A stretch of 64,000 nt of DNA, taken from assembly GCA_947166345.1 (NCBI GenBank), contig CAMVDU010000002.1:52555-116554 (forward strand), in the 5' to 3' direction. Each line of letters begins with the position of its first letter. Within the stretch, counting starts at the first letter, position 1. Made by a program: the position numbers and the translations under genes. The DNA comes from an uncultured Prevotellaceae bacterium (GTDB lineage: Bacteria > Bacteroidota > Bacteroidia > Bacteroidales > Bacteroidaceae). Below the pieces are notes generated by a model. That model was given only the letters and a program-made list of their open reading frames with translations. It had not been told where the DNA came from and made no database searches. Positions 15,181 through 62,110 of the stretch are shown piece after piece.

Positions 15181-15236
15181 TTCCATGGATAATGGATAAT
15201 GAATAATGGATAATGAATAATTGATAATTGACAATT
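15181..15236. repeat. Micro-repeat array (taatggataatgaa)
   Basis: ttccatggataatggataatgaataatggataatgaataattgataattgacaatt before ATG 15237. Confidence 0.75.
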
Positions 15237-20700: not shown

Positions 20701-20845
20701 TGTCCGGATATGATACGAATATCCCGAACAAAGTGTACGGAGCCTTCCGGACGCTTTGTACAAGACGCTTGTACACTCTGTACGAGACTTCTGTACTGAG
20801 TGTACGGGATACAAACACAGCGTGTCCGTGACGCTCGAACACTTT
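20701..20845. repeat. 22-bp-period repeat array B (TGTAC/TGTCC core)
   Basis: TGTAC/TGTCC starts at 20757, 20779, 20801, 20823 (22-bp steps), interleaved TGTAC at 20770 and 20792 (22 bp), earlier cores at 20701 and 20734. Confidence 0.75.
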
Positions 20846-31844: not shown

Positions 31845-31866
31845 CATCCGGTAATCATTATTGAGT

Positions 31867-31912
31867 AGTTCATAGTTCATAGTTCAGAGTTCATAGTTAA
31901 TTGTTCATTGTT
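31867..31912. repeat. Micro-repeat array (gttcatagttcat)
   Basis: agttcatagttcatagttcagagttcatagttaattgttcattgtt directly before ATG 31913. Confidence 0.75.
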
Positions 31913-32902
31913 ATGAAGAATCAGAAGTTGTATGAGGCCGACGACAAGATGATATCGCTGATACGCGACAACTACGACCTGTTGCAGATGCTGGGCAGCT
32001 TCGGCATCAGCCTCGGCTTTGGTGACAAGACCGTCAAGGAAACCTGCGAGGACAACCATGTAGATACCTACACCTTCCTCACCGTTGTCAACTTCATCAT
32101 CAATGGCTATGGCGAACGACTGGGGACGGGCGCCTCGGCAGGAACCATCGAGAACGACGAGCATATCTGCGTGCCCACACTGCTGCACTATCTGGAGGCC
32201 AGCCACGCCTATTTCCTCGACTTCCAGCTGCCCTATATCCGTCGCGAGCTGCAGGAGTCGCTCAACGAACACGACTCTCTGGCGAAGCTCATCCTGCGCT
32301 TCTACGACGAATACGCCCACGAGATACGCCGTCACATGAAATACGAGCAGAAGACGCTCTTCCCCTATGTGCAGTCGCTCATCAACGGACAGGCTGCCAA
32401 CGACTACAACGTCGATACCTTCTCCAAGCACCACGCCGCCACCGACAAGAAGTTGCGCGAGCTGAAGCTGCTCATCATCAAGTACCTGCCGCAGGACGGC
32501 CTGCACAACAACCAGCTCACAGCCACCCTCCACGACATCTACGAGAACGAGGTGTGGCTGCGTCAGCATGCCATGGTCGAGGACTATATCTTCGTGCCTG
32601 CCATCCGCCGTCTGGAGCAGATCACCAAGAAGAGCGACATCACCCGCAACATCTCCGACATGGTCTTCAAGAACGGCATGAATGGCGACGAGACCCTCTC
32701 CGACCGCGAGAAGGATGTCATCATCGCCCTGGTGCAGGGTATGCAGAACAAGGAGATTGCCGACCACCTCTGCATCTCTGTCAACACCGTCATCACCCAC
32801 CGTCGCAACATCGCCCGCAAGTTGCAGATCCACTCCCCTGCGGGCCTCACCATCTACGCCATCGTCAACAACCTTGTTGACATCTCTACGGTGAAGCTCT
32901 GA
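31913..32902 (+). CDS. Hemerythrin/RIC(YtfE)-like di-iron sensor domain fused to LuxR-type HTH, transcriptional regulator
   Basis: HHE ligands in ASHAYF, RRHMKYEQKTLFP, SKHHAATD, RQHAMVEDYIFVP; C-terminal LSDREKDVIIALVQGMQNKEIADHLCISVNTVITHRRNIARKL. Confidence 0.85.
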   Translation: MKNQKLYEADDKMISLIRDNYDLLQMLGSFGISLGFGDKTVKETCEDNHVDTYTFLTVVNFIINGYGERLGTGASAGTIENDEHICVPTLLHYLEASHAYFLDFQLPYIRRELQESLNEHDSLAKLILRFYDEYAHEIRRHMKYEQKTLFPYVQSLINGQAANDYNVDTFSKHHAATDKKLRELKLLIIKYLPQDGLHNNQLTATLHDIYENEVWLRQHAMVEDYIFVPAIRRLEQITKKSDITRNISDMVFKNGMNGDETLSDREKDVIIALVQGMQNKEIADHLCISVNTVITHRRNIARKLQIHSPAGLTIYAIVNNLVDISTVKL

Positions 32903-32917
32903 GAATCTATGAGAGAA

Positions 32918-33123
32918 TGACGCATTTTCTTCGAGAAGGTGACGCACTTTCTCAGGCAGAGTGACGCAGAACGCATGGCAACGTGACGCAGAAGGCAACC
33001 CTTTGACTTAAGTCAAACGACCTTTTGACTTAAGTCACGAGACCTTTTGACTTAAGTCGAGCGACCTTTTGACTTAAGTCACGCGGTAGGGAAGTGTGTC
33101 TTCTCGTGTTGAGAAGTGCGTCA
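32918..33123. repeat. 22-bp-period array C: 4x TGACGCA, 4x TGACTTAAGTCA-type palindromes, then inverted TGCGTCA
   Basis: TGACGCA at 32918, 32940, 32962, 32984; TGACTT at 33004, 33026, 33048, 33070; AAGTGnGTC at 33092 and 33114. Steps of 22 bp within each block. Confidence 0.92.
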
Positions 33124-33133
33124 GTTTGCGTTG

Positions 33134-33171
33134 AAAAAAGACAGCCCTGCAATCAGCAGGGCTGTCTTTTT
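33134..33171. terminator. Bidirectional Rho-independent terminator
   Basis: AAAAAAGACAGCCCTGC-AATCA-GCAGGGCTGTCTTTTT. Confidence 0.9.
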
Positions 33172-33220: not shown

Positions 33221-36052
33221 TTACTCCTTGGTCATGTCGGGGAGCATGATGACCTCGACGTGGTTGCCGCTGGAGAGGACCTTCGTGCGGACGAAGGTGC
33301 TGACGGCCTCGGGGGTGAGGGCCTCGACGGTCTTCTTGTAGTCGGTATAGACATCGAGTCCGTAGTCCTTGTAGGTGGTGATGGTGTTCACCCAGTAGTT
33401 GTTGTTCTTGAACTTGATGTCGGCATCCTTCAGCATGTTCTCCTTGACCTGTGCCAGGTCGTCGGCGCTGATGTTCTCGGAGACGCTCTTCATGCCCTCG
33501 TGGAGCAGGCGTACGGCTGTCTCCTGCTTGTCGGGGTTCATGGGGCAGTAGGCCTGGAGCGTCATGAGGGGCTTGGAGCTGCTGAGGTCGAAGCCACCAG
33601 CGGCACCGCAAGAGTAGGCGGCACTCTCTTCCTCGCGGATGGTGCGGAGGTAGAGGATGGAGAGGAGCTGTCCTGCTGCGTCGAGCTTGACGATGTTGTC
33701 GAGGGTGTAGGGTGCCTCGGCTGTCCAGAACTCTACGGCTGTGGCCTTGGGAGAGTCGGTCTTCACGAGGAACTTGTTGACAACCTCGCCCTTGGCGTAG
33801 GTCTGCACGTCGCGGAAGTTGTCGGCCTTGCCCTTACCAGGCAGGGCGGCGATGTACTGCTCGATGTAGGGAAGGATCTCTTCCTCGGTGAACTTACCCA
33901 CGATGACGAAGGTGAACTGCGAGGCGTTCTTGAAGCGATCCTGATGGATGGCGAGGATGCGGTCGTAGTTGATGTCCTTCAGGTCTTCCACCTGCAGGTT
34001 GTTGAAGCGTGGGTTGTGGCTGTAGATGGTGCACAGCAGTGAGTCGTTATAGACGGCGTCGGGCGACAGCGACTTGTTCTTCAGAGCCATCTCGAGCTGT
34101 GTCATGAGGTTCTGGAACTGCTTCTCGTCCTTGTTGATCTTGGTGAAGTAGAGATAGACCATCTGGAACATGGTCTCGCGGTCCTTCGGGGTAGTGTGGG
34201 CCGTGACGTACTGACGGGTGAGACCCATGGTGGCGTCGGCGTTGACCTCCTTGCCTGCGAGGGCCTTGGTGAGCTCAGTGCTTGAGAAGTTGCCGATGCC
34301 GCTGTAGCCGATGACCTCGTCGAAGACCTTCAGGTTGGTGTAGTCCTCAGGACCGAACACCGACTTGCCACCCTTGGCGAAGGCCTGCAGGCGAATCTCG
34401 TCGTCGTTGTAGTCGGTAGGCTTGAGGATGACGGTGGCACCGTTGGAGAGCTTCAGCTCCTTGTAGCCCAGCACCTTGTTCTCGGTGGTCTTCACCACCT
34501 TGCCGGCCTTGGGCAGCTCGCTCATGAGGGGCTCGTCCTTGACGTTGTCCACGTAGGCGCTAATCTCCTGGGCGCGTGCCTTCTCGACGGCAGCCTTCAT
34601 GTCAGCCTCGGTGGGGTAGGTGAGACCATCGGCCTCGCGTGCCCACTCCATGACGACGAGGTTCTTGTCGTTAACGGAGATGAGCTCGGGCAGAGCCTGG
34701 TTGATGATGGTCACAGGGATATTGGGAGCCAGCATGTTCATGGTCTGGTAGAGCACCTCGATAGAGGGGATGGGCTCGTTCTGCAGGTAGTTGTCGCGAT
34801 AGTCGTCGCCATAGGCGGCATTGGTGATCTTCGCACGGTTGTTGTACTGCTTCTCGAGGGCGCTGAGGTAGTCGGCCTTGGCACGCTCGTACTCTGTAGC
34901 GGTGAAGCCAAACTCAGCAGCACGGCGCGACTCGACCATCAGGGCGGTCAGCGCATCCATGTCGCGACCCTCCTTGGGATAGGCCATCAGCTGGAAGGCA
35001 TCCTTGGTGCTGGCCAGCAGGTAGTCGTCGTCCTCGCCGGCAGCCTGGAAGAAGGGACATTCGGCATTCTCGGTCATCTCGCGCAGGCGTGCGTTCATCA
35101 TATTAGCTATGACGGCCTTGGCATAGATCTCGATGAGGTAGGCCATCGATGCCTTCTCCTCGGGAGTGGTCGTCTCGTGCTTCATGAAGACGAGGATCAT
35201 GTTGGTCTGCATCTCCTTGTCCTTCTCGAAGATATAGATAGCCTCGTCGTTGTCGGGCACGGGCTCAGCCACCACCTGGGCAGCGTTTGCAGCCACCTTG
35301 ATGCCGCTGAAGTACTCCTTGATCTTGGCTTCCATGTGATCGACATCGACATCGCCCACCACGATGATGGCCTGGTTGTCGGGGCGGTACCACTTCTGGT
35401 AGTAGGCGCGCAGCGTCTGGGGCTTGAAGCTGTCGATGACGCTCATCAAGCCGATAGGCATGCGCTCGCCGTACTTAGAGCCAGGATACATCTTGGGCAG
35501 GGCACGGGTAATCATGCGCTGTGAGGGACCTTCGCCCAGGCGCCACTCGTTGTGCACCACGTCGCGCTCCTTGTCAATCTCCTCGGCTTCGAGCGACAGT
35601 CCGCACGACCAGTCCTTCAGGATGAGCAGACACGAGTCGAGAGCTGCCTGACCCTTGGCCGTAGGCACGTTGCAGACGCGATAGACGGTCTGGTCGATAG
35701 AGGTGTAGGCATTGAGGTCGCTACCAAACTCCACGCCGAGTGAGCGGGTGTAGTCGATGATGCTCTTGCCAGGCTTGTTGGGGAAGTTCTCCGAGCCGTT
35801 GAAAGCCATGTGCTCGAGGAAGTGGGCCAGGCCGCGCTGTGAGTCGTCCTCCTGGATGGAACCTACACGCTGGGCGATGTAGAAGTTGGCTACATGCTCG
35901 GGCCACTCGTTGTGACGGATGTAATAAGTCAGTCCGTTGTCCAGTTTGCCGATGCGCACATCGGGGTCAACGGGAATGGGAGGCATCTCTTGTGCCACCA
36001 CGGTCGTCATACCAGTGAAAAAGAGTATGGCGGCTAAGAATAGCTTTTTCAT
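33221..36052 (-). CDS. M16 family zinc metallopeptidase
   Basis: HFLEHMAFNGSENFP (HxxEH), signal peptide, two M16 halves, 943 aa. Confidence 0.93.
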   Translation of the reverse strand: MKKLFLAAILFFTGMTTVVAQEMPPIPVDPDVRIGKLDNGLTYYIRHNEWPEHVANFYIAQRVGSIQEDDSQRGLAHFLEHMAFNGSENFPNKPGKSIIDYTRSLGVEFGSDLNAYTSIDQTVYRVCNVPTAKGQAALDSCLLILKDWSCGLSLEAEEIDKERDVVHNEWRLGEGPSQRMITRALPKMYPGSKYGERMPIGLMSVIDSFKPQTLRAYYQKWYRPDNQAIIVVGDVDVDHMEAKIKEYFSGIKVAANAAQVVAEPVPDNDEAIYIFEKDKEMQTNMILVFMKHETTTPEEKASMAYLIEIYAKAVIANMMNARLREMTENAECPFFQAAGEDDDYLLASTKDAFQLMAYPKEGRDMDALTALMVESRRAAEFGFTATEYERAKADYLSALEKQYNNRAKITNAAYGDDYRDNYLQNEPIPSIEVLYQTMNMLAPNIPVTIINQALPELISVNDKNLVVMEWAREADGLTYPTEADMKAAVEKARAQEISAYVDNVKDEPLMSELPKAGKVVKTTENKVLGYKELKLSNGATVILKPTDYNDDEIRLQAFAKGGKSVFGPEDYTNLKVFDEVIGYSGIGNFSSTELTKALAGKEVNADATMGLTRQYVTAHTTPKDRETMFQMVYLYFTKINKDEKQFQNLMTQLEMALKNKSLSPDAVYNDSLLCTIYSHNPRFNNLQVEDLKDINYDRILAIHQDRFKNASQFTFVIVGKFTEEEILPYIEQYIAALPGKGKADNFRDVQTYAKGEVVNKFLVKTDSPKATAVEFWTAEAPYTLDNIVKLDAAGQLLSILYLRTIREEESAAYSCGAAGGFDLSSSKPLMTLQAYCPMNPDKQETAVRLLHEGMKSVSENISADDLAQVKENMLKDADIKFKNNNYWVNTITTYKDYGLDVYTDYKKTVEALTPEAVSTFVRTKVLSSGNHVEVIMLPDMTKE

Positions 36053-57368: not shown

Positions 57369-58396
57369 CGTGGTAGTGAAAACGTCTTTTTGTCAGGTCG
57401 CCATTGTGGGAAGATACGTTTCAGCGTGTAGCGTCGTGCCTCTTTCTTGCTGAGCACGGTCTCTATGGTGTTGGTCTCGTCGCGCAGGGTCAGCGTCAGC
57501 ACGTTCGACGCAGGCATCACGCTGCGGCCCTCGTAGTCGTGCGTACCATATTCTTTGAACTGACTGTCGATGGTGCGCATGCCGTGCGGGTCGAAACGCG
57601 TGGCGTCCAACTTGTCAGGAGAGAGCAGGGTGGTGTTGATCCACGTACACTTAGGCGAGATGCGCCATCCGCGGGCATAGACAAACGATGAACCCTCATT
57701 GTAGATGCTGCAGTTCAGGAACACGTAGCCCCAGGGCGTCTTCGACGTGCGAGGGGCGGCAATCACACAGCGTCCCCTGCCGCTACGGTGCTCCGTGACC
57801 AGCGTGCAGTGGTTGAACACCACATCGCCAGCCCCACAGATGAAGTCCACCGTACCGTGAATCTCGCAGTCCTCAAAGTACATCTGTCCCCTTTCGTTGT
57901 CCGAGTAATAAGTGTCCTGAAACGACAGCATACACACACGTCGGCAGATGGTGCGCGTCCCCTTGTCCTGCAGACAGACGGCACGGCCTGCAGCCCTAGT
58001 CTTGTCGTAGTCCAGCGCATTCTGCAGCGTCAGGTCCTGCAAGCAGTTGTCTGTGCCCGTGATGCGCAGGGTCGCTGTGGTGGCAATACCCTCCTGTTCT
58101 ACGGGTGGCTGGTTGCGTATGATGGTGCTGTCCATGCTCTCGCCCAGCAACACCACGTGGTTGGCTGTCAGTGTCGTCAGTACGCGCTGTCCCAGGTCGT
58201 AGGTGCCGTTAGGAATCACAATGTAGAGCCACTCTGATGCAGGCGCGTCGTTACGACTGTTAGCCTCGTCGATGGCCTTCAGCAGACTCTCTGCATTGCC
58301 TGCCTCCACGTTGATTCTGTTCTCTTGGGCCGAAGCCTTGCTAATGAACAATGTACAATGAATAATGAACAATGATATCCACAATAAATGCTTCAT
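57365..58396 (-). CDS. Pectinesterase family protein
   Basis: GTVDFICGAGDVVFNHC, LSFQDTYYSDNERGQMYFEDC, FVYARGWRISPKCTWINTTL. Confidence 0.85.
   Translation of the reverse strand: MKHLLWISLFIIHCTLFISKASAQENRINVEAGNAESLLKAIDEANSRNDAPASEWLYIVIPNGTYDLGQRVLTTLTANHVVLLGESMDSTIIRNQPPVEQEGIATTATLRITGTDNCLQDLTLQNALDYDKTRAAGRAVCLQDKGTRTICRRVCMLSFQDTYYSDNERGQMYFEDCEIHGTVDFICGAGDVVFNHCTLVTEHRSGRGRCVIAAPRTSKTPWGYVFLNCSIYNEGSSFVYARGWRISPKCTWINTTLLSPDKLDATRFDPHGMRTIDSQFKEYGTHDYEGRSVMPASNVLTLTLRDETNTIETVLSKKEARRYTLKRIFPQWRPDKKTFSLPR
58340..58380. repeat. Micro-repeat array forming part of the pectinesterase signal peptide (SLFIIHCTLFI)
   Basis: taatgaacaatgtacaatgaataatgaacaatgat. Confidence 0.75.
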
Positions 58397-62022: not shown

Positions 62023-62110
62023 CTAAACTCCAAAACTCCAAAACTCCTAAACTCCTAAACTCATCAACTTATCAACTCAAAAACTCATCAACTCCTAAAC
62101 TCCTAAAAAT
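62023..62110. repeat. Micro-repeat array (aaactcctaaactcc/atcaact)
   Basis: gtctaaactccaaaactccaaaactcctaaactcctaaactcatcaacttatcaactcaaaaactcatcaactcctaaactcctaaaa. Confidence 0.8.

Follow-up and report, generated by a model that had tools for sequence, protein, structure and literature searches.

A dispersed intergenic repeat element with a constant 22-bp step in a family of the Bacteroidales

Introduction

Dispersed repeats of bacteria are usually recognised through their sequence. In E. coli, REP and BIME elements are found near the 3' ends of genes, while the iterons and partition arrays of plasmids consist of direct repeats in phase, their dyads spaced by about two helical turns. REP/BIME and RAYT systems have been described as short palindromic units which are clustered, intergenic and dispersed, and whose sequences are species-specific (PMC3733652). 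Within the Bacteroidales, Porphyromonas gingivalis possesses BrickBuilt, a MITE/minisatellite of 23-nt tandem repeats with leader and tail flanks, of which one genome has 19 intergenic copies. BrickBuilt has a pitch of 23, 1 to 22.8 repeat copies and IS5-like terminal repeats, and occurs only in P. gingivalis and P. gulae; both 22- and 23-nt tandem repeats have been noted in P. gingivalis W83 (PMC4596501).

We describe here an array of 22-bp units in a 64,000-nucleotide stretch (the window) of the genome of an uncultured Prevotellaceae bacterium, together with its relatives in other genomes. The part of the literature that was searched contained no earlier report of 22-bp arrays in Prevotella, and there is apparently none of a class of intergenic repeats whose step stays at exactly 22 bp throughout a bacterial family even as the sequences change completely.

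Results

Structure of the array

The array lies between two convergent genes, whose identities as a LuxR-type regulator with a hemerythrin domain and an M16 peptidase, proposed in a first-pass annotation made from the sequence, were confirmed by Pfam. When the sequence is cut into 22-bp frames, a single unbroken register spans arms and core from 32911 to 33130, with four left-arm units (TGACGCA), four core units (TGACTTAAGTC) and two right-arm units (GTGnGTC). The features of the window that concern us are:

20734 to 20796, plus strand: second, more degenerate array of 22-bp pitch and different sequence (TGTACGAGACTTCTGTACACTC; TRF period 22, lag-22 score 39/66)
31913 to 32902, plus strand: LuxR-type regulator with hemerythrin domain, neighbour outside the element (Pfam GerE, Hemerythrin)
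32911 to 32998, plus strand: left arm, TGACGCA in each of four 22-bp units (22-bp frames, motif positions)
32999 to 33086, plus strand: core, exactly four 22-bp units with GACTTAAGTC at the centre (frames, positions; the same in 24 of 24 complete copies)
33087 to 33130, plus strand: right arm, GTGnGTC(A) in each of two 22-bp units, in inverse orientation to the left arm (22-bp frames)
33134 to 33171, no strand: inverted repeat GACAGCCCTGC-AATCA-GCAGGGCTGTC flanked by A/T tracts, likely a bidirectional terminator (read from the sequence)
33221 to 36052, minus strand: M16 peptidase, convergent neighbour outside the element (Pfam M16 domains)

The motif positions given in the first-pass annotation are exact: TGACGCA starts at 32918, 32940, 32962 and 32984, TGACTTAAGTC at 33004, 33026, 33048 and 33070 (the next base being A in three of the four), and AAGTGnGTC at 33092 and 33114, with the inverted TGCGTCA at 33117. 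The stop codon of the regulator occupies 32900-32902, 15 bp short of the first motif, as had been read. The bidirectional terminator that had been proposed is borne out in part: the inverted repeat with its A- and T-tracts is present, but it is absent from the list produced by a mechanical terminator scan.

At lag 22, the best 66-bp window of the array region matches itself at 57 of 66 positions. One thousand shuffles of the same region, with dinucleotide composition preserved, gave a mean of 22/66 and a maximum of 35/66. We find support for the claim that the array is organised, non-random and phase-locked, and the claim holds far beyond the window. The companion suggestion that all sites lie on nearly the same face of the DNA hinges on the helical repeat in the cell, since 22 bp correspond to two turns only if that repeat is about 11 bp.

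The window also contains many AT-rich, degenerate intergenic repeats with a 7-/8-bp period, among others at 973-1031, 15185-15235, 31866-31912, 58343-58375 and 62023-62108. Their units (TAGTTCA, ATGGATA, AATGAAC and TAAACTCA) form a period class separate from the 22-bp arrays.

Copies in the source genome

A genome-wide pattern search, as had been proposed for this array, showed that it is not local. There are 52 occurrences of TGACTTAAGTCA in the assembly (2.28 Mb, 82% complete) and none of the reversed control pattern. Among the places examined, at least 25 arrays have the form of the same cassette, 4 x GACTTAAGTC at 22-bp steps between inverted TGACGCA / TGCGTCA arms in one register, these counts being based on pattern searches and sampled stretches of the genome. 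Every one of the 24 complete copies has exactly four core units, of which no more than one deviates, by a single mismatch at most. The 12-bp fillers between the cores are variable and recur in other combinations among the arrays of this genome. All of the copies are intergenic, with none inside a gene; the array is thus one copy of a dispersed, intergenic, non-coding DNA element.

The stretch common to most copies measures only 130-220 bp, with a longer leader and/or tail in six of them. GGTAG is found to the right of the core in most copies, not at each hairpin foot. One copy (L029) has inverted ends of about 30 bp, and the arms of the cassette are themselves inverted. No clean target-site duplication was seen at the sites compared between related species, and no autonomous partner was found.

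On their left side, L005, L006, L021, L024 and L028 share a leader of some 300 bp in which GGTAGC/GCTACC palindromes abound; on the right, L006, L021, L024 and L026 share a tail of about 200 bp. These segments suggest a longer composite element.

22-bp arrays in related genomes

For a census of pitch we scored self-identity at every lag, ignoring the sequence itself and excluding simple repeats, with lags 13-32 not divisible by three for comparison. In DNA of the same genus (1.18 Mb), lag 22 gave 47 arrays, or 39.8 per Mb, whereas the other lags averaged 0.46 arrays each, and periods neighbouring 22 bp were almost absent. Other genera of the family yielded 10 lag-22 arrays in 0.35 Mb (28.4 per Mb) and other families of the order a single one in 0.67 Mb (1.5 per Mb; genus versus order, p = 2e-8). 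One genome can hold several unrelated sequence families of 22-bp arrays. Their consensus sequences are self-complementary at 5.29/7 compared with 4.48/7 when shuffled (59 arrays, p ~1e-7 to 1e-9), an excess of dyad symmetry not found in arrays of other periods. That the 22-bp step is constant across the clade is the most surprising result of our analysis.

Two arrays of 23-bp pitch (CTCACAATCTTGTCAATTTTTAT) were seen at L151 8231 and 9647, in a genome from another family of the order (G053); they are perhaps a sister class.

The exact TTAA form of the core is rare beyond the source species and was found in none of 59 relatives searched; it is present in public genomes named Xylanibacter brevis and Xylanibacter muris and in several Prevotella/Bacteroidales metagenome bins. 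When the central tetramer is freed, the generalised pattern (TGACNNNNGTC three times at 22 bp) occurs in 23 of 300 same-genus genomes, compared with three matches for the reversed pattern, and such three-in-a-row arrays also occur in several other genera of the family. The preferred tetramer differs by species (TTAA, TGGA, CTAG, GAAG, TATA), and so do the arms which flank the core. Where the first-pass annotation asked for conservation of core or spacing among relatives, it is the 22-bp spacing that is kept across genus and family while the core sequence varies by species.

Within this variation the dyad is kept. A Y precedes GAC and an R follows GTC in 255 of 255 core units, and of 117 unique units 108 have complementary outer bases in the tetramer. 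For three inner filler pairs the frequency of complementarity is 0.53, 0.60 and 0.59, where shuffling the halves among species predicts 0.33, 0.34 and 0.36, an excess of about 2 sd for each; the fourth inner pair does not exceed the shuffle expectation. Complementarity beyond that of the species shuffles indicates that the dyad is maintained as the sequence turns over.

Genomic position and turnover

Arrays of the GAC type are enriched in gaps between convergent genes (20/59 versus 27/203, OR 3.3, p = 0.0008), and in tandem gaps 27 of 33 arrays are closer to the 3' end of the upstream gene, at a median distance of 115 bp; these statistics were obtained with a simple codon-based gene caller, and copies from the same genome are not independent. 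Depletion from divergent gaps reached only p = 0.08.

Turnover was followed in a species pair of ~89-92% identity, Xylanibacter brevis ATCC 19188 (G302) and G140. At orthologous sites of the two genomes an array can be present or absent (L053 versus L201), swapped for one of another family, or resized by units. In one case the net difference amounts to exactly 264 bp, or 12 x 22, and is in register with a two-unit arm array of the other species; in a second it is 66 bp, or 3 x 22, inside the core. Elsewhere, most array gaps differ in length by amounts not divisible by 22, so change by whole units is a tendency at best and not the sole process. Universal insertion in multiples of 22, which the one clean case of 264 bp and the one of 66 bp would fit, was rejected.

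The comparison of orthologous LuxR-hemerythrin loci, which had been put forward as a check, covered the 29 nearest loci: none has the cassette downstream of the gene, although unrelated 22-bp arrays occupy the place in three relatives. In L092, L089 and L096, differing arrays (ACCCGCCGGGT; AAGCACCGCTTT; TTTCAAGCCT) are located at or near the same spot just 3' of the LuxR-hemerythrin orthologue.

Comparison with described repeat systems

The leader and tail of six cassette copies recall the leader-repeat-tail layout of BrickBuilt. The cassette differs from it in its pitch of 22, its fixed four-unit core and its unit sequence, GACTTAAGTC, and the 22-bp class to which it belongs is family-wide, independent of sequence and near-absent outside the family. 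The symmetric arm-core-arm dyad layout of the cassette has likewise not been described for BrickBuilt. As in REP/BIME systems, the palindromic units are short, clustered, dispersed and intergenic, with at least 25 copies and none in genes, their sequences are species-specific, and they lie near the 3' ends of genes; unlike in those systems, they stand in exact 22-bp tandem register, and a clear GTAG/CGTC-tagged hairpin organisation was not seen, though GGTAG does follow the core in most copies. Y1 transposase (PF01797) was not found in the source genome (82% complete); of 12 genomes that bear arrays, 8 have it, without its lying regularly beside the arrays.

Partnership with a RAYT was rejected after inspection of 19 Y1 loci, none of them in the source genome: the arrays which flank some of them (L101, L108) belong to other repeat families. 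In L108 (G196), repeats containing GTGTAGGGGCAGGCCTTGTGCCAGCCCG lie on both sides of a RAYT-like Y1 transposase gene (1408-2082) and look like a separate REP/RAYT system. A CRISPR array was also rejected, as the cassette has a 10-bp core and 12-bp fillers which recur between arrays, not long identical repeats with unique spacers. No Rfam family was matched at anything close to a gathering score.

The cassette thus resembles both REP/BIME and BrickBuilt and is filed under neither, because the source genome yielded no Y1 transposase, the unit is not the 23-nt one of BrickBuilt, and terminal repeats and target duplications are not established. Repeats defined by pitch and spread over a family may deserve a category of their own if a dedicated protein is found.

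Discussion

The explanation we favour, to which we give an even chance of being right, is that the array is a dispersed element in the manner of REP/BIME or MITEs, and that a putative bound protein holds its pitch at 22 bp. The element is modular: a core of about four dyad-symmetric 22-bp units is framed by inverted arms made of weaker 22-bp units, and the whole keeps a single register. Its copies prefer sites just 3' of genes and between convergent genes and are gained, lost, replaced and resized, sometimes by whole units, and the pitch stays constant while the sequence turns over in concert inside each genome. On the simplest account, each 22-bp dyad, or two helical turns, would be the seat of one dimer of a cooperatively binding protein. 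A change of spacing would then be selected against, and the recognised sequence would be free to drift along with the protein. Binding of one dimer per dyad with cooperativity would explain the pitch, the symmetry and the concerted change of sequence, and might affect transcription ends or local supercoiling. The coexistence in one genome of different core families of equal pitch is not explained by a single sequence-specific protein.

The first-pass annotation had suggested, among other readings, a protein-binding scaffold and a structured 3' UTR; the organised array it saw is real, and both readings are still candidates. Were the arrays transcribed as 3' UTRs, they could fold into rows of 22-nt hairpins which shield the ends of mRNAs or serve as sites for an RNA-binding protein, 22 bp being two turns of an A-form helix. 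The RNA fold of the array region has a z-score of -5.65 relative to shuffles, arrays lie near 3' ends, and the one described here is preceded by a stop codon and followed by a terminator-like hairpin. The invariant Y and R around the core fit this reading too, as does a polarity of T-G 'wobble' pairs which is consistent inside arrays (4 exceptions in 62), and the polarised strand folds better with RNA parameters in 49 of 59 arrays. However, that strand was picked by T-G pairs, which themselves favour its RNA energy, and the polarity may partly reflect shared descent. DNA folding is equally extreme (z -6.1), arrays are often found between convergent genes, and in tandem gaps polarity shows no significant agreement with gene direction (18 same, 13 opposite). 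On balance we regard an RNA role as a real alternative, though a rather unlikely one. It is also unlikely that the arrays are purely selfish or neutral MITE-like repeats without host function, with a pitch set by a copying or recombination process and not by a bound protein. Their dispersal, polymorphism between close species, avoidance of genes, several sequence families per genome, and leader and tail segments common to a subset of copies would all suit such repeats. A neutral mobile origin fits the turnover, and fits less well the fixed four-unit core, retained in 24 of 24 copies despite diverged fillers, and the one pitch shared by unrelated sequences. These, with the species-level covariation of the dyad, point to constraint, and no transposase partner was found, a Y1 transposase not being detected in the source genome.

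The remaining readings are far less probable. Tandem repeats of many other periods occur in the window, as might be expected of an ordinary slippage minisatellite or of chance; chance is ruled out by the 1000 shuffles, and slippage predicts neither one exact period over unrelated sequences and many species nor a fixed unit number, so that this origin is very improbable and the earlier view that the array is not a simple slippage repeat holds. Replication iterons, parS-like partition sites or the remnants of an integrated plasmid would account for iteron-like direct repeats with palindromes. Yet the cassette is dispersed over the chromosome in about 25 intergenic copies, among several unrelated sequence families per genome. 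A search of 72,556 plasmid records returned no match, among viral contigs only one was hit, and the neighbours of the array are the LuxR-hemerythrin and M16 peptidase genes and not a replication initiator; the iteron or partition-type array proposed in the first pass is accordingly highly improbable. Least credible of all is the proposal that the array is an autoregulatory sink or operator array for the LuxR-hemerythrin protein. The gene is adjacent, and an HTH protein beside dyads is suggestive, but at least 24 further copies adjoin unrelated genes, and the gene is present in 267 of 300 genomes although the cassette is missing behind its 29 nearest orthologues.

It is possible, if somewhat doubtful, that genomes of this family each carry on the order of a hundred intergenic arrays set by pitch rather than sequence (an extrapolation from ~40 arrays per Mb), all of exactly 22 bp and dyad-symmetric, and drawn from several unrelated sequence families in each genome. 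Together they would make up a nucleoprotein or hairpin scaffold common to the clade and located at gene ends, its spacing read by a dedicated putative protein or copying machine. Xylanibacter brevis ATCC 19188, a named strain which bears arrays, makes direct testing possible. The host group is abundant in the gut, mouth and rumen, and its chromosome organisation and transcription ends have been little studied. What is conserved here is the 22-bp step, over unrelated sequences in many species that span several genera of the family. Such a constant step near gene ends, combined with dyad symmetry, suggests that the 22-bp units have a physical reader or maker in common.
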